DNA of 31,788 bases from a virus. The position numbers were made by a program, and so were the translations under genes. Each line of letters begins with the position of its first letter. Positions within the stretch are counted from its first letter, which is position 1. Of the stretch, positions 2,830-31,788 are shown piece after piece. The stretch lies in IMG/VR virus record IMGVR_UViG_3300020219_000049, positions 1 through 31,788 of that record. The stretch is one strand, 5' to 3'. The notes beneath the pieces were generated by a model that worked only from the letters and a program-made list of their open reading frames with translations, was not told where the DNA came from and made no database searches.

Positions 2830-3219
2830 ATGTTTAGCCTTAGTGATATCTGTCTTGGTTGTGGCCAACTGAGGACGGAATGCTCATGCAAAAGCAAGAA
2901 GTCGAAGCACAAAAATGTCCGAACTGAGTTGGATGGGATTACCTACGACAGTGCTAAAGAAGCTAATCGAGCAGCAGAGTTGAAGATCGTCGCACTTGCA
3001 AAGCAGATCGATGATTTGAGGACTCAAGTTCCATTCAAGTTGATTGTTAATGAACAGACGGTTTGCACTTACGTCGCTGATTTTGTTTACCTTGATCTGG
3101 TGACTGGCAATGTGGTTGTTGAGGACGTGAAGTCTGACCACACGAGGAAACTGCCAGTTTATCGGATCAAGAAGAAGCTCATGAAAGCGTGTCTTGGAAT
3201 AGAGATCGTGGAGGTCTAA
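2830..3219 (+). CDS. DUF1064-family phage nuclease with N-terminal zinc knuckle
   Basis: A 129-residue protein. The N-terminus has CLGCGQLRTECSC, a possible zinc knuckle. The body matches the DUF1064 pattern: an ELDGITYDSAKEANRAAELK block, an L-Q-V-PF-L strand, then YVADFVYLD and VVVEDVKSD, and a C-terminal KKKLMKACLGIEIVEV. The E at EA, D in ADF and E/K in EDVK resemble a PD-(D/E)xK nuclease core. The family is proposed to include phage Holliday-junction resolvase-like nucleases acting in DNA processing. The start follows a promoter at 2787; the stop abuts the next gene's GTG. Confidence 0.75.
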   Translation: MFSLSDICLGCGQLRTECSCKSKKSKHKNVRTELDGITYDSAKEANRAAELKIVALAKQIDDLRTQVPFKLIVNEQTVCTYVADFVYLDLVTGNVVVEDVKSDHTRKLPVYRIKKKLMKACLGIEIVEV

Positions 3220-3687
3220 GTGGTTATTGAAATTAAACGTGGTCCATGCTCAAGCTGCCCTTATCGTAAAGACGTTCCGAGTGGCGTGTGGGAGGCAGAA
3301 GAGTACGACAAGCTGTCTGCGTATGACGGCGACATCATGTACCAACCAGCACGGTGGTTCATGTGCCACAACCAGGACAACAGTCTGTGCCGAGGGTGGC
3401 TCGATTGCCACGGTGAAGAATTGTTGGGCGTCAGGCTTGCGCTCGCAAAGGGTGAGTTGGATATAGATGAATACAAGAAGGCCATGGCGGAAGATCCACT
3501 GGTTCCTGTATTTCAGAGTGGGGCTGCCGCTGCCAAGCACGGCAAGAAGAAAGTAAAGAAGCCGACTACCGAAGCGCAGAAGCAGGTTGCTAAAATCTTA
3601 GAGAATCGCAGAAAGAACGCAGCGATTCGGGCTAAGTTGAAGATCTTAGAGACTCGCAGAAAAGAACTGGAAGGGCGTACGACATGA
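3220..3687 (+). CDS. DUF6283-like cysteine-rich phage protein
   Basis: A 155-residue protein starting with GTG directly after the previous stop. The N-terminal 65 residues match the small phage family I know as DUF6283: CSSCPYRKDVPSGVWEAEEY, an aspartate-rich YDG, then FMCH and CRGWLDCHG, which together could coordinate zinc. The C-terminal 60 residues are Lys/Arg/Ala-rich and helical (KKKVKKPTTEAQKQVAK), suited to nucleic-acid binding or a coiled coil. Function is unknown. The last 4 nt overlap an ATG at 3684 in frame with the following gene. Confidence 0.7.
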   Translation: MVIEIKRGPCSSCPYRKDVPSGVWEAEEYDKLSAYDGDIMYQPARWFMCHNQDNSLCRGWLDCHGEELLGVRLALAKGELDIDEYKKAMAEDPLVPVFQSGAAAAKHGKKKVKKPTTEAQKQVAKILENRRKNAAIRAKLKILETRRKELEGRTT

Positions 3688-3718
3688 CCATCCACCCTGA
3701 AAGCCTTGACGATATTTC

Positions 3719-3745
3719 AGCAATCGAACGAATGAACACAGAGGG
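3719..3745 (+). repeat. isolated partial copy of the CRISPR repeat
   Basis: These 27 nt match the 3' three quarters of the 36-nt repeat of the 7572-8115 array with one mismatch (A at 3740 where the repeat has T). The match starts at AGCAATCGAACG and ends at GAGGG. A Shine-Dalgarno sequence and ATG follow after 13 nt, the same spacing as after the repeat of the module at 5162-5335. In both places the interval contains GGA and TGCAAT. No scaffold precedes this copy. Confidence 0.75.
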
Positions 3746-3758
3746 AGGAAATGCAATC

Positions 3759-4094
3759 ATGGGAATGAATTTATCTGTATATGTCGGGCCATATTTTATC
3801 ATTGCCAAGGAAAGTTGTTTTCGATGGATGGATTGGGAAAACGTATTGTGCGACGGGCGAGGTGAAGCTGGAGTTGACGAATCAGATTTGATACTAATTC
3901 CTAACCGGAAGCTGGATGGCGTCGAGCGACCAATGCACATCGACGGCGAGCAAGGCACGATCCAGATTAACCCAGCAATGATAGTTAAGGAGACAGCGGC
4001 ATTCGTTCGACTAGCCGATGAAGTCATCCGGCATTGCGACGACAGGCTCATTGAAATTAGGGAAGCGTGGGGCGTCGTTCCGTGTTGGTCTTAG
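3759..4094 (+). CDS. hypothetical phage protein (MNLSVYVGPY type)
   Basis: The product from ATG 3759 has 111 residues and begins MGMNLSVYVGPYFII, a pattern I associate with small phage proteins of unknown function. GGGAGGAA at 3743-3750 lies 8 nt before this ATG, which favours it. An alternative in-frame start at 3684 overlaps the previous stop (ATGA) and would add 25 residues encoded through the partial CRISPR repeat. Cysteines are present (SCFRW, CDGRG, HCDD) but no clear zinc site. The repeat-like leader at 3719-3745 makes its regulation interesting. Confidence 0.6.
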   Translation: MGMNLSVYVGPYFIIAKESCFRWMDWENVLCDGRGEAGVDESDLILIPNRKLDGVERPMHIDGEQGTIQINPAMIVKETAAFVRLADEVIRHCDDRLIEIREAWGVVPCWS

Positions 4095-4112
4095 ATTTTG
4101 AGAGGAAGAACC

Positions 4113-4319
4113 ATGAGCGAAAGCAAAGACACGACAAATGATTGTCAGTCGCGCGCGAGATCGCCCGACGAAATAGCATTGTCAATACAGGTTTTGAATC
4201 ATGAACTTGCACTCGGAAGTGCGATGCACGTTGTCGATATGCTTGTTGGCAATCCGTACTTCAAGGATCGTCGCGAAGAACTAATCAACACGATTGCTCA
4301 AGTGATTTCTCTTGCATAA
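4113..4319 (+). CDS. hypothetical protein, 68 aa
   Basis: ATG 4113 follows GAGAGGAAG at about 4100-4108, so I prefer it over a TTG at 4098 in the same frame. The product begins MSESKDTTNDCQSRARSPDE and is helical further on, with GSAMHVVDMLVGNPYF and an amphipathic C-terminus. It is the last gene of the small-gene run; a non-coding block follows. Function unknown. Confidence 0.55.
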   Translation: MSESKDTTNDCQSRARSPDEIALSIQVLNHELALGSAMHVVDMLVGNPYFKDRREELINTIAQVISLA

Positions 4320-4532
4320 AACCGTAAACAACGTAAACGGTTCTATTTCCTACTTCAACGAGACCCTAGTGGGCTACTCTCGGTAGGCTTTAATTCCCGG
4401 TCAAGCACCGGTATTTGGTTTCTAATGTTATACGCAAACAACTCTACGCCGTCAATCGCTTACGCTGTTTACGTTTTAATCAAACTGTTACTCACTATCG
4501 AATGTCAGGGAATAGGTAAAAAACGACCTTCG
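4320..4532 (+). other. non-coding block with dyads and GTAAAC/GTTTAC motifs
   Basis: No convincing gene. AACCGT (4320-4325) and ACGGTT (4337-4342) form a dyad that encloses two direct GTAAAC motifs (4324-4329, 4333-4338). AACGTAAAC at 4330-4338 is an exact inverted copy of GTTTACGTT at 4467-4475. Between them are a CCGGT/ACCGG hairpin near 4400-4415 and a weak stem-loop near 4372-4391. The block may terminate the upstream operon and carry regulator, replication or recombination sites. The sequence does not say which. Confidence 0.4.
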
Positions 4533-5161: not shown

Positions 5162-5335
5162 TCCTAGACGTTTCGCAAGATACGTCGAGAGTTGGCCACC
5201 TCCAGGCCGACAGTGAGCATCTAGGTAACAATGAGAGTATCAAGGTGCTCGCAGAAGGCCGAAAACAGGCGGGGATAAACAGGGTAAATCCTGACGGCCC
5301 CCGCAGTGAACAATCGAACGAATGATCACTGAGGG
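5162..5335 (+). ncRNA. guide-RNA-like scaffold plus one CRISPR repeat (copy A)
   Basis: Nearly identical to 7423-7607 and 30177-30361 from TCCTAGACG onward. It ends in a full 36-nt repeat at 5300-5335 that carries two variants: A at 5310 and T at 5326. The first hairpin (CTAGACGT with ACGTCGAG) has one mismatched pair here. GCGGGG in the scaffold can pair with CCCCGC at the start of the repeat. DNA directly after the repeat (from 5336) would be the guide if this is transcribed as a single RNA. That DNA is the ribosome-binding site and start of the gene at 5349. No promoter specific to this copy is evident, so readthrough from 4533 is likely. Confidence 0.65.
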
Positions 5336-5348
5336 TGGAGGTGCAATA

Positions 5349-5558
5349 ATGATCGCAATTGAAAACCAAACGATGATTCCGGAGCCTGTGGTTGCGGATG
5401 ATTGGCTGACTCAGTGGTTCCTCGAAAGGGCAACCGATCGTCTTGCAGAGATGTCTTGTGATGCATTCACTGTCGGTTCTTGTTCGGATCACGAATTGTG
5501 CGTCACCGAATTTTGTGCTGTGTGCGCAGCCAAAGAGTTGAAGTTACTTAGGGAGTGA
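5349..5558 (+). CDS. hypothetical protein directly downstream of guide module A
   Basis: A 69-residue protein. GGAGGTG at 5337-5343 and ATG 5349 define the start; the 13-nt gap from the end of the CRISPR repeat equals that at the gene at 3759. The product begins MIAIENQTMIPEPVVADDWL and has a C-terminal cysteine cluster (SCDAF, SCSDHELC, FCAVCA) that could bind zinc. I recognise no family. If module A is transcribed through, this gene has a structured guide-RNA-like leader, so its expression may be coupled to the RNA. Confidence 0.55.
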   Translation: MIAIENQTMIPEPVVADDWLTQWFLERATDRLAEMSCDAFTVGSCSDHELCVTEFCAVCAAKELKLLRE

Positions 5559-6112: not shown

Positions 6113-7597
6113 ATGGCAATGCGCACTGTTTCGATTCCCATCGCTGAGTGCATTTCGAACACCAAAACCGAGCTTTACGCGGCATTGCAAAAATCACTTG
6201 ACGCCTCTCGCGTGGTCGCTAATATCGCTGCTACAGAATGCTTGCGGCAAGATAATTTGCAGATGGAAAAGTGCCCTAAAATCTACACTTACCCGGCGTG
6301 CAAAGGCTTATTCGAAGGTGTCTCATTTATGGTCTCTTCGGTTTGCCGCGCTGTGGAATCGGCGTATAAGAAAAAGCGGTGGAGAATGATCCGAGGCATG
6401 GAAGCAAGCCGTAGCTATCGGTCGCAGCCTTGGCCGATGCTCAATAATAAATCATGCTCTACATTCACAATCGATGATGAAGGAGAGTTTCTGACGTGTC
6501 GCATTAAGCTACTGGACGATTGGTTCGTAGTCCGGTTAGCCGGTGGAGTTAGCCATCGCGATCAAATTAAAGGCTTGCGAAGGGCGATTGCAAGTGATGG
6601 AGTCTGCGATTCTAAGTTGTGGATCGATCGAAAAAACAAGGCGATTATTGGCTTTTCTTGCGACGTAGCTGTTGCCGAGAACAAGCAGAAGCCTGATTGT
6701 GAAGTGCGGATATCTAGCGGAGTTGATTACCTACTTGGACTTACGCAAGATCGCGTTCAATCGCCATGGGTTGTCAACGCAGATGAGGTCATTTTATGGA
6801 AGGCTGAATCCACTAGGCGCAACCAACGCTATAGGCAGTCGCGAAAGCAAGGCGTCGATAGGCGACGACTCAAGGAAGAATCTAAAGCATTTGCGGATAA
6901 GATGGCAAGAAGGTTGGCGACAAAGATACACACATCGACCAGTCAAATTGTTGACAAGGCTATTAAGATTGGAGCGGCGAGAGTCAAGCTAGACTTAACA
7001 ATCAAAAGCTTCGCAACTGAATTTCCCTGGTATGATTTGGCTAACAAGATAAAATACAAATGCGAGTCTGCTGGAATCGAAGTCATTGACGCTACGCAAA
7101 CAGTCGCTCAACCGGACTGCGAAAAGCCGCATGTTTATTTTGCTTACGACTTGCATTCGCATCGGGTAAAAATAGGAAGAACTCAAGGCGGAAAAGATCG
7201 TCTAAAAGCATTCTGGACTATGCAGCCAGATTTGATTTTGCTTGCGGTTGACAATCGTGCGCAATCGAGGCTGGTTGCGATGGAAAAACACTATCACGCA
7301 TATTTCGACAATCATCGCGTGGTAAATCGAGACAAATCAGGTCGCGAGTTATTCGCGGCTGATCCTGTATTGCAATGGTTGCGAGCGGTTGGGTGGCTCG
7401 GAAATGCCGGGAACCTCTCGCAGATCATGCAAGTCCTAGACGTGTCGCAAGATACGTCTAGAGTTGGCCACCTCCAGGCCGACAGTGAGCATCTAGGTAA
7501 CAATGAGAGTATCAAGGTGCTCGCAGAAGGCCGAAAACAGGCGGGGATAAACAGGGTAAATCCTGACGGCCCCCGCAGTGAGCAATCGAACGAATGA
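6113..7597 (+). CDS. Cas12/TnpB-like RNA-guided protein with C-terminal T5orf172 (GIY-YIG) domain
   Basis: A 494-residue protein from ATG 6113; no clear Shine-Dalgarno. Residues 1-110 are helical and end in SYRSQPWP, like the N-terminal lobe of small Cas12/TnpB proteins. Residues 116-200 form a beta-rich wedge-like region. D205 in SGVDYLLGL sits where the RuvC-I Asp is expected. A basic bridge-helix-like segment follows (about 231-270), then STSQIVDKAIKIGAARVKLD, where D294 replaces the usual RuvC-II Glu. ESAGIEVIDATQTVAQ (318-333) matches the strand before a TnpB zinc ribbon. The ribbon and RuvC-III are absent. Instead residues 339-425 look like T5orf172: HVYFAYD, VKIGRT, DRLKAF, EKHYHAYF and SGRELFAA. 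The last 54 codons overlap the RNA scaffold, and the stop lies in the first repeat. The RuvC site is probably inactive, with GIY-YIG providing cutting or binding. The fold call is by eye. Confidence 0.7.
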   Translation: MAMRTVSIPIAECISNTKTELYAALQKSLDASRVVANIAATECLRQDNLQMEKCPKIYTYPACKGLFEGVSFMVSSVCRAVESAYKKKRWRMIRGMEASRSYRSQPWPMLNNKSCSTFTIDDEGEFLTCRIKLLDDWFVVRLAGGVSHRDQIKGLRRAIASDGVCDSKLWIDRKNKAIIGFSCDVAVAENKQKPDCEVRISSGVDYLLGLTQDRVQSPWVVNADEVILWKAESTRRNQRYRQSRKQGVDRRRLKEESKAFADKMARRLATKIHTSTSQIVDKAIKIGAARVKLDLTIKSFATEFPWYDLANKIKYKCESAGIEVIDATQTVAQPDCEKPHVYFAYDLHSHRVKIGRTQGGKDRLKAFWTMQPDLILLAVDNRAQSRLVAMEKHYHAYFDNHRVVNRDKSGRELFAADPVLQWLRAVGWLGNAGNLSQIMQVLDVSQDTSRVGHLQADSEHLGNNESIKVLAEGRKQAGINRVNPDGPRSEQSNE

Positions 7598-7607
7598 TCA
7601 CTGAGGG
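7423..7607 (+). ncRNA. guide-RNA scaffold plus first CRISPR repeat (copy B, array leader)
   Basis: Structured DNA overlapping the 3' end of the Cas12-like gene and running directly into the array. Hairpin 1 is CTAGACGT (7436-7443) with ACGTCTAG (7454-7461), 8 bp perfect. Hairpin 2 is TTGGCC (7464-7469) with GGCCGA (7477-7482). GCGGGG (7541-7546) pairs with CCCCGC (7571-7576) at the start of the repeat and encloses a CAGG/CCTG stem. CAGTGAGCA at 7483-7491 also occurs in the repeat. By analogy with omega RNA and tracrRNA-crRNA duplexes, this is probably the scaffold that the nuclease binds. Confidence 0.7.
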
Positions 7608-8115
7608 GCTAACGGAAAGCCGTTTTGTGTACAAGACTTGCTGACCCGCAGTGAGCAATCGAACGAATGAACACTGAGGGCTGCCAAACTTGTCCATTGG
7701 CCAATGTGACTACTGAACCCCGCAGTGAGCAATCGAACGAATGAACACTGAGGGGAGACCGTAGTTTAGCGACCGTCCCTCAGTGTTCATCCCGCAGTGA
7801 GCAATCGAACGAATGAACACTGAGGGGTGGTGCCAAATCTTTGGGGATGTGTTGTTGGGCGTCCCCGCAGTGAGCAATCGAACGAATGAACACTGAGGGA
7901 CCCAGGCTGCGTTTGTTTCGCGCGGCATGGATTTCCCCGCAGTGAGCAATCGAACGAATGAACACTGAGGGCGTAAGTTGCCAAAGCTTGTCCGATCTAA
8001 GCGTTGCACCCGCAGTGAGCAATCGAACGAATGAACACTGAGGGGAGCAGACCTGACACTTTCCTTTTACCCCCGCCTTCCCGCAGTGAGCAATCGAACG
8101 AATGAACACTGAGGG
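7572..8115 (+). CRISPR. CRISPR array, 8 repeats of 36 nt and 7 spacers
   Basis: Repeats start at 7572, 7645, 7719, 7791, 7864, 7936, 8009 and 8080, each 36 nt. Spacers are 37, 38, 36, 37, 36, 37 and 35 nt and differ from one another. All repeats are identical except the first, which has T instead of A at 7598. The ends CCCGCAGTG and CACTGAGGG form a 9-bp stem with one mismatch. The first repeat is continuous with scaffold B. Spacer 3 (7755-7790) ends in a 14-nt inverted copy of the repeat's 3' end. There is no cas1, cas2 or cas4 nearby. The array ends 25 nt before the gene at 8141. Confidence 0.95.
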
Positions 8116-8140
8116 AGGGTCTGACTCGTGAGGTGTGATT

Positions 8141-8389: not shown

Positions 8390-8404
8390 AGTCAGAGAAC
8401 GATG

Positions 8405-30178: not shown

Positions 30179-30361
30179 TCATGCAAGTCCTAGACGTGTC
30201 GCAAGATACGTCTAGAGTTGGCCACCTCCAGGCCGACAGCGAGCATCTAGGTAACAATGAGAGTATCAAGGTGCTCGCAGAAGGCCGAAAACAGGCGGGG
30301 ATAAATAGGGTAAATCCTGACGGCCCCCGCAGTGAGCAATCGAACGAATGAACACTGAGGG
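30177..30361 (+). ncRNA. guide-RNA-like scaffold plus one CRISPR repeat (copy C)
   Basis: Same sequence as copy B (7423-7607) from GATCATGCAAG onward except for a few changes; the full repeat is 30326-30361 with the array-type A at base 27. The 8-bp first hairpin and the GCGGGG/CCCCGC pairing are kept. The candidate guide starts at 30362 (ACCACCGG...). The region to 30483 then holds a CTGGAG/CTCCAG hairpin (30414-30435), a short GAAG/CTTC stem and a T run near 30452, possibly an RNA 3' end, and AAGGAG before the next ATG. It stands between two exported-protein genes. Confidence 0.65.
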
Positions 30362-30483
30362 ACCACCGGAAAAGAGAAGGCCAAACTTGGAAGCTATAAG
30401 GTTTTACTGAAAATCTGGAGAAAAAAGCAACTCCAGAAGGGCTTCCCCGGTGACTTTTAATCGTAGTAATAAAAGGAGTATAT

Positions 30484-31272
30484 ATGCGTTTTCTCGCTGC
30501 GTGGCTTTTGTTGTGCGTGAGCTGCTTTGGACAAATCAAAATTTCCGAGCAGAAAACGCAGTCGTGGGTGGGCTTCGATGAGCCGGTTGTCGTCAACGGA
30601 ATCGTGCAAAGCGGGCCGAAGTCTAAGCCAGTGCTAGCCGGTACACGTTCGATAATCGTAGTCGACTACACAGGCTACGAATTCATCACGATGTATGCGG
30701 AAAAGATCCCAAGCCTCGAACGCGTAAACATCGAGCAGGCAGAAGGCGGCTACTGGTTCCCAAGCACCATTGTAAATGGAAAGTATCGAGTACTTGCCAT
30801 CGCGACAGCAACCGCAAAGGCACCTTCAATTGAATCGCTGGTTGTCGATGTCGGTGGTGTGCCAGATCCACCGAAGCCGGAGCCGATACCAGTTCCAGAT
30901 CCGCCAAAGCCTGACGTTGCAATTCGGAATGAATACGGTGTCGGATTAGCGGCATACAACGCAGCAGGCGATGCGACAACGGCGATCAAATATGCTGCAA
31001 TCTATGAGGCTTCTGGTAATTTCTTGTTCGGTATGCCATCGCTGAAATTCATCGTGTCGGACAATGCCAATGACTCGAAAGATCCAAACAAAAGCGTGTT
31101 AGCTTGGATGGACCAAGAGCAAAAAAAGATACCATCGACTGCAAAATGGGATGAATGGAAAATCGTTATGCGGACTGCGTTTCTGGAGTCTCAAAGAAAT
31201 AGACAGTTCACACGCGGCGATTGGTATTCAGCGTTCAATGAAGTCAAAGATGCATTAAGGGCGGTGAAGTAA
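30484..31272 (+). CDS. exported protein with signal peptide and proline-rich linker
   Basis: A 262-residue protein. ATG 30484 has AAAGGAG at 30472-30478 upstream. It begins MRFLAAWLLLCVSCFGQIKI, a Sec-type signal. Residues to about 125 form a beta-rich domain. A linker DPPKPEPIPVPDPPKP follows, then a helical C-terminal domain (ATTAIKYAAIYEASGNFLFG, and on to NEVKDALRAVK). The N-terminal half has a distant look of host-secreted Ig-like domains. It overlaps the protease gene by 1 nt, so it may be exported or acting on the cell envelope with it. Confidence 0.6.
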   Translation: MRFLAAWLLLCVSCFGQIKISEQKTQSWVGFDEPVVVNGIVQSGPKSKPVLAGTRSIIVVDYTGYEFITMYAEKIPSLERVNIEQAEGGYWFPSTIVNGKYRVLAIATATAKAPSIESLVVDVGGVPDPPKPEPIPVPDPPKPDVAIRNEYGVGLAAYNAAGDATTAIKYAAIYEASGNFLFGMPSLKFIVSDNANDSKDPNKSVLAWMDQEQKKIPSTAKWDEWKIVMRTAFLESQRNRQFTRGDWYSAFNEVKDALRAVK

Positions 31273-31788
31273 TGGATCGAATAAGTAAAGAACTACCTAC
31301 GTATAACATGGGTTATGCGATCGAAGAAGAGAATCGACCGCTCCTCGAAGAACAGGGTATCGATCCGCAATTCTTGCTCTCGCGAGCTGCCGAAAACTTT
31401 CCACAATTTAACGTGCAGAACAACCCTCGCGAAATCATTCCACAGATAAACCAAGAACAGCAAGGAAGTTGCCAAGGGCATTCACTGATGCGAATGTTCA
31501 TCATTTGCTACTACCTTATGACTGGTCGGATACTGTCGTTTAGTCGCGCGGCTGCATACTACTTGAGCCAACGAAAAGACGGCATCAAAGGTGATCGCGG
31601 ATCGACGCTATCGGGTGGCCAGTGGGTCGCGACTCAGCACGGCCTATGCCTCGAATCGGAATGGAAGTATCCTTCTGAATACGATCCAAGAGAACCAAAT
31701 CCGAAGCCAAATTACAGTTTTAAATTGGTGTCAGCGAAGCCGACGAATGATCCTCGACTGATCCGCGAAGCTCTCGATATGGGCTTGC
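31272..31788 (+). CDS. papain-like (C1-type) cysteine protease, 5' part
   Basis: The gene starts at ATG 31272 (TAATG overlap) and runs off the window. Residues to about 55 are N-terminal. QEQQGSCQGHSLMRMF contains the catalytic Gln and Cys (Q...GSC pattern of papain). A helix with SFSRAAAYYLSQR follows, then DRGSTLSGGQWVATQHGLCL and SEWKYPSEYDP, similar to the G-G-x-x-x-x-A...Y-P part of C1 proteases. The expected catalytic His and Asn would lie past the window. Possible roles are virion protein maturation or lysis. Confidence 0.7.
   Translation, partial: MDRISKELPTYNMGYAIEEENRPLLEEQGIDPQFLLSRAAENFPQFNVQNNPREIIPQINQEQQGSCQGHSLMRMFIICYYLMTGRILSFSRAAAYYLSQRKDGIKGDRGSTLSGGQWVATQHGLCLESEWKYPSEYDPREPNPKPNYSFKLVSAKPTNDPRLIREALDMGL

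Follow-up and report, generated by a model that had tools for sequence, protein, structure and literature searches.

An isolated piece of a phage's own CRISPR repeat within a phage open reading frame

INTRODUCTION

Why should a phage carry, away from its CRISPR array, a single incomplete piece of the repeat from which that array is built? This question is raised by fragment E (Table 1), a site known from a single contig, IMGVR_UViG_3300020219_000049 (31,788 bases, IMG/VR), the whole of which was analyzed here and is called the window. The fragment could be what is left of a CRISPR unit, a trace of how the repeat came into being, a target or a regulatory leader, an RNA anti-CRISPR, or ordinary gene sequence of common descent with the repeat. 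Here, we compare the fragment with the CRISPR locus of the phage and weigh these readings against each other.

RESULTS

The window contains a phage CRISPR locus in which scaffold-plus-repeat units occur three times in near-identical form (5162-5335, 7434-7607, and 30188-30361). Those of modules A and C lie outside the array and resemble natural single-guide RNAs whose guides are fixed; neither the window nor its relatives yielded a target for the module guides. The array repeats span 7572-8115, and each repeat has an 18-nt loop between two arms of 9 nt (CCCGCAGTG-AGCAATCGAACGAATGAA-CACTGAGGG), with a predicted fold of -13.6 kcal/mol. The effector, a Cas12-like protein, is encoded in a reading frame that crosses the scaffold of module B and reaches into the first repeat. 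This protein matched the models of Cas12f (2.9e-15) and Cas12u3 (3.1e-14), and its C terminus gave a weak match to T5orf172 (GIY-YIG-like) of 0.0015, just below the curated cutoff. When the effector was aligned to a solved Cas12f-like chain, the RuvC-II Glu was unmatched. The gene products searched included neither cas1 nor cas2. Spacer 3 (7755-7790) contains the reverse complement of the 3′ end of the repeat; its other strand, ATGAACACTGAGGGACGGTC, is identical at 19 of 20 positions to the terminal repeat of the array plus trailer (8102-8121), and from this similarity the spacer looks as if it was taken from a related array.

Table 1. Coordinates of fragment E and of the features with which it was compared
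Feature	Position in window	Strand	Remarks
TTTC immediately 5′ of E, Cas12-type target motif layout	3715..3718	+	Noticed after the fact
Isolated partial repeat (fragment E)	3719..3745	+	Repeat loop AGCAATCGAACGAATGAA, 18 nt, exact, plus 3′ stem arm CACAGAGGG with one change
Stretch common to E and the leader downstream of module A (AGGAAATGCAATC-ATG versus TGGAGGTGCAATA-ATG)	3746..3761	+	Has GGAGG
136-aa ORF with E in frame (...DDISAIERMNTEGGNAIMGMNLSVYVGPYF...)	3684..4094	+	ORF list, codon score; no significant relative
11-nt reverse complement of the E core (CATTCGTTCGA), same ORF	4000..4010	+	Predicted mRNA pairing
Module A	5162..5351	+	Scaffold plus repeat (5162-5335) plus 13 nt plus ATG; comparison locus
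Cas12f/TnpB-like protein, C-terminal T5orf172 domain	6113..7597	+	Profile matches
Module B	7423..8115	+	Scaffold, then CRISPR array; 8 repeats, spacers of 35-38 nt
Module C	30188..30361	+	Scaffold plus repeat

Fragment E (AGCAATCGAACGAATGAACACAGAGGG) is identical to the array repeat at 26 of its 27 positions, just as a preliminary description of the locus had stated. The first 21 nt match perfectly, the sole mismatch is a T-to-A change at 3740, and the 5 nt that follow all match again. A match of this type is expected by chance about 3e-10 times per window, and the best other plus-strand site, found by scanning the whole window with the module and array repeats excluded, reached 16/27. Fragment E is a genuine, non-random piece of the repeat. 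Homology begins exactly at the boundary between the 5′ arm and the loop; the 5′ arm itself is missing (2 of 9 letters match), and the fragment covers 27 of the 36 nt (75%), so that it is not a complete palindromic 36-nt repeat. Since only the loop and the 3′ arm are present, fragment E is unable to form the repeat hairpin. Indeed, its predicted fold was no better than that of shuffled sequences.

The preliminary description had also noted that no scaffold adjoins the region 3719-3761, and this was borne out by two approaches. A search with nhmmer --max detected no scaffold upstream of fragment E, the significant hits being modules A, B, and C only, and 56 of 200 random sites did as well as or better than the fragment in an anchored extension into the scaffold. 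Neither a scaffold nor a second repeat adjoins the fragment, as would mark an array or guide RNA module of this phage. A colinear 9-nt match, CTCGCAGAA at 3652-3660, was considered as a sign of a decayed scaffold upstream of E and was rejected, with about 30% of shuffles reaching the local scores. Moreover, this 9-mer is part of a coding stretch that is duplicated (KILE[NT]RRK), and nhmmer found nothing there.

The similarity between fragment E and module A runs beyond the repeat up to an ATG. In both, a gap of 13 nt with a GGA-type ribosome-binding site and TGCAAT leads from the end of the repeat to the start codon, which is ATG 3759 behind fragment E and ATG 5349 behind module A, whose repeat ends at 5335; this arrangement was described correctly before. 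The 16 nt before each ATG, a comparison window that takes in the final 3 nt of the repeat, are identical at 12 of 16 positions, the top value among 595 gene-leader pairs. The two also share the peptide M-x-T-E-G-G-x-A-I-M. Homology of the two genes was rejected, the alignment being limited to these ten residues, as was an origin of module A by insertion into another copy of the E site, the left flanks being non-homologous. Fragment E is closer to the array consensus than to module A, and because two changes in the module A repeat are absent from E, the fragment was not copied recently from module A. The most economical inference from these sequences is a common ancestral stretch, composed of the 3′ part of the repeat, the 13 nt, and the ATG, which would lie behind both E and module A, whichever the direction of copying.

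ATG 3759 is also an in-frame methionine of the ORF at 3684-4094, whose start overlaps the stop of the preceding DUF6283 gene (ATGA). The reading frame through E is TCA GCA ATC GAA CGA ATG AAC ACA GAG GGA GGA AAT GCA ATC ATG, in which the ten E-derived codons from the first GCA to the second GGA give AIERMNTEGG. The codon-usage score of 3687-3758 was 0.208, a value reached or exceeded by 28% of the real gene windows of this phage but by only 1.7% of stop-free wrong-frame windows, in a test that spans just 24 codons; the ten repeat-derived codons alone are non-discriminating, with 14% of wrong-frame windows scoring as high. Because the codon usage of 3687-3758 is gene-like and the fragment is in frame, E is probably translated rather than a leader, and ATG 3759 is probably an internal methionine. 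On the same two counts, the earlier placement of E upstream of another phage gene is doubtful: the ATG is there, in frame within a longer ORF. The Shine-Dalgarno sequence before 3759 appears to be no worse than that before 3684. The GGAGG of the E region may support internal starts at 3759 as well, and a start at 3759, with 3719-3758 as leader, is possible.

The plus strand from 3000 to 4532 showed no promoter-like (sigma-70-like) site. In the mRNA, the 11-nt reverse complement within the same ORF is predicted to pair with the core of the fragment, and thus of the repeat, with a probability mostly above 0.95; an 11-nt partner within 374 nt was found for 12 of 2,392 sampled 27-mers (0.5%). Single-sequence structure predictions gave no usable model (pLDDT 34.5 and 38.7).

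Relatives were sought with ORF 3684, the DUF6283 protein, and the Cas12-like protein in IMG/VR, GTDB genomes, phages, and plasmids, and DNA patterns were run against IMG/VR and genomes. Protein searches of IMG/VR, phages, and plasmids gave no significant relative of the ORF at 3684-4094. The only other repeat-bearing contig in these searches was IMGVR_UViG_3300020201_000285, which is about 99% identical outside the array and covers window positions 7507-30461 and, thus, not fragment E. A second near-identical, shorter contig covers 15295-24633, again not E; a terminase search gave both contigs.

The arrays of the two approximately 99% identical phages differ (window 7608-8079 versus L010 101-427), spacers having been lost or exchanged. 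About 100 nt past the module C repeat, the relative switches to unrelated genes (window 30462-31788; L009 6636-7043), which marks a mosaic breakpoint. A segment of about 175 nt with terminal inverted repeats is present at 4308-4487; in the relative (L011 741-920), it is found at the site equivalent to 8394, 100% identical and inverted, and the window is empty at 8394. Judged by its sequence, this segment is a mobile miniature element. It also contains a weak, sub-threshold similarity to RAGATH-18. Furthermore, a 167-nt duplication (82% identical) connects 384-550 and 869-1035, which are parts of two small genes.

DISCUSSION

We consider the chances slightly better than even that fragment E is an inert, translated stretch that shares its descent with the repeat and with the leader of module A. 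One stretch of common descent would then be found in three places, namely the 5′ end of this phage gene, the CRISPR repeat of the phage, and the leader that follows module A, and the similarity of the three would have arisen by copying within this phage lineage. Fragment E would at present be ordinary gene sequence, read as AIERMNTEGG, and, being without scaffold, 5′ arm, hairpin, and partner repeat, would have no present role in CRISPR. From the sequence features described above, inert and translated is the most likely state of the fragment. On the other side stand the small size of the codon-usage test, the Shine-Dalgarno sequence before 3759, and the spacing of GGA, TGCAAT, and ATG, which was kept in both E and module A and could mean a conserved leader. 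If E is inert, it is a sign that letters of the repeat and starts of genes were exchanged in this phage.

The copying could also have involved a guide RNA. A TnpB/Cas12-type guide RNA, consisting of scaffold and guide, might once have held the sequence of this gene as its guide or flank, and the guide, having become constant, might later have given the repeat its loop and 3′ arm. The homology that begins precisely at the boundary of 5′ arm and loop would fit such an origin, and so would the perfect match of 21 nt, about one guide length, the similarity to module A that extends beyond the repeat to the ATG, and the coding-like sequence of E as part of this gene. Moreover, the fragment is preceded by TTTC, so that the layout of a Cas12 target, a T-rich 5′ motif followed by a guide-length match, is found at E (TTTC plus 21 perfectly matching nucleotides); however, this was spotted post hoc, and TTTV is found at 1.04% of the plus-strand positions. 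The agreement at 5 of 5 nt after the mismatch is not expected of a 20-nt guide, the left flank of module A is non-homologous to that of E, and no ancestor or relative was found in the searches made. On balance, we regard an origin through a guide RNA as rather unlikely. The more specific proposal, in which a TnpB-like guide against this gene was the ancestor of the loop and 3′ arm and 3715-3745 was the original target near the resulting array, is very unlikely. E may itself have been the source of the repeat, as one option of the preliminary description had it. Were the repeat derived from this gene, or from a guide that targeted it, the locus would preserve rare evidence of how a TnpB-type guide RNA gives rise to a CRISPR repeat. 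A CRISPR unit may instead have left its remnant here, a repeat with or without scaffold having recombined into the 5′ region of the gene and having lost all but 27-43 nt. Arrays and modules do recombine in this lineage, as illustrated by the different arrays of the window and its near-identical relative, and E fits the array consensus better than it fits module A; but a trace of the scaffold and the 5′ arm (2/9) are both absent, and the upstream stretch is coding-like and not scaffold-like, which makes such a remnant unlikely. In the form given in the preliminary description, that of a remnant of an old module, the idea found no support for a whole module, with no scaffold homology, an extension matched at 56 of 200 random sites, and 2 of 9 letters in the 5′ arm.

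Two further readings give fragment E a present function. A repeat-containing RNA might direct the Cas12-like protein, probably without RuvC cleavage, to E and thereby repress the gene. The TTTC followed by a perfect 21-nt match would suit such a self-target, and since the RuvC-II Glu is missing from the Cas12f alignment, binding without cutting is plausible for this protein. The repeat is not known to serve as a guide, and the matching letters belong to it rather than to a spacer. Also, the letters of the repeat are normally held by the protein as a handle or hairpin, the repeat has a strong fold, and E is matched by no spacer or module guide; guide A as a guide aimed at E was rejected, all guides and spacers being more than 4 mismatches away from E. 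Self-targeting is, thus, highly improbable. To the other functional reading, in which a leader at E controls translation via the repeat RNA or the Cas12-like protein, we give hardly any credence. The spacing of ribosome-binding site and ATG resembles that of module A, spacer 3 has the reverse complement of the repeat end, and an 11-nt reverse complement with predicted pairing lies at 4000-4010, but the codon usage is coding-like throughout E, the hairpin is absent, and E and the repeat RNA are of the same sense. Because of this sense and the lack of a stem, the RNA of E would not serve the repeat as an antisense target and would not offer a hairpin for protein binding, and the earlier suggestion of a site recognized by repeat RNA or the Cas12-like complex is for the same reasons unsupported at the RNA level. 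As DNA, the site might be recognized, since it follows TTTC and matches perfectly over 21 nt.

A repeat-like sequence that stands alone in a phage genome calls to mind RNA anti-CRISPRs, that is, solitary repeat units directed against a host CRISPR system. The viral solitary repeat units counted in PMC10651486 are intergenic, often lie behind a promoter, and mimic the repeat of the host, and RacrIF1 depends on its stem (PMC10651486). Fragment E is like them in being a single repeat-like sequence in a phage genome away from an array. It is unlike them in that it is partial, stemless, located in an ORF, and similar to the phage's own repeat. SRUFinder, whose search is restricted to intergenic sites, defines a full match by a repeat coverage of at least 90% (PMC10651486), whereas E covers 75%. 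The fragment lies inside the ORF at 3684-4094 with coding-like codon usage and not between genes, a leader reading being possible, and its folding z score is +0.35 versus -3.90 for the repeat, so that it has no hairpin; a promoter-like site is also lacking. Moreover, the pattern is absent from the genome_contigs collection (84,980 species). We therefore consider a role as RNA anti-CRISPR extremely improbable. If fragment E is inert, it cautions against taking isolated repeat matches within ORFs for RNA anti-CRISPRs.

Virus-borne CRISPR mini-arrays and single repeat units (reviewed in PMC11656645) share with this locus that pieces of CRISPR systems are present in a virus, possibly for use in conflicts between viruses; the virus-borne mini-arrays described there, however, use the repeat of the host (PMC11656645), and E is without a spacer partner. 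TldR proteins, the nuclease-dead TnpB repressors of prophages (PMC13418256), are likewise phage TnpB-like proteins with a guide RNA and an inactivated nuclease domain. In contrast to TldR (PMC13418256), the protein of this phage is accompanied by a CRISPR array and a T5orf172 domain, and E itself is no guide RNA. Type V-F and V-U3 systems (Cas12f and Cas12u3) differ in that the RuvC-II Glu of the window effector is unaligned, its C-terminal part is a T5orf172 match, and E lies outside the array; they are similar in that the effector matches both of their models.
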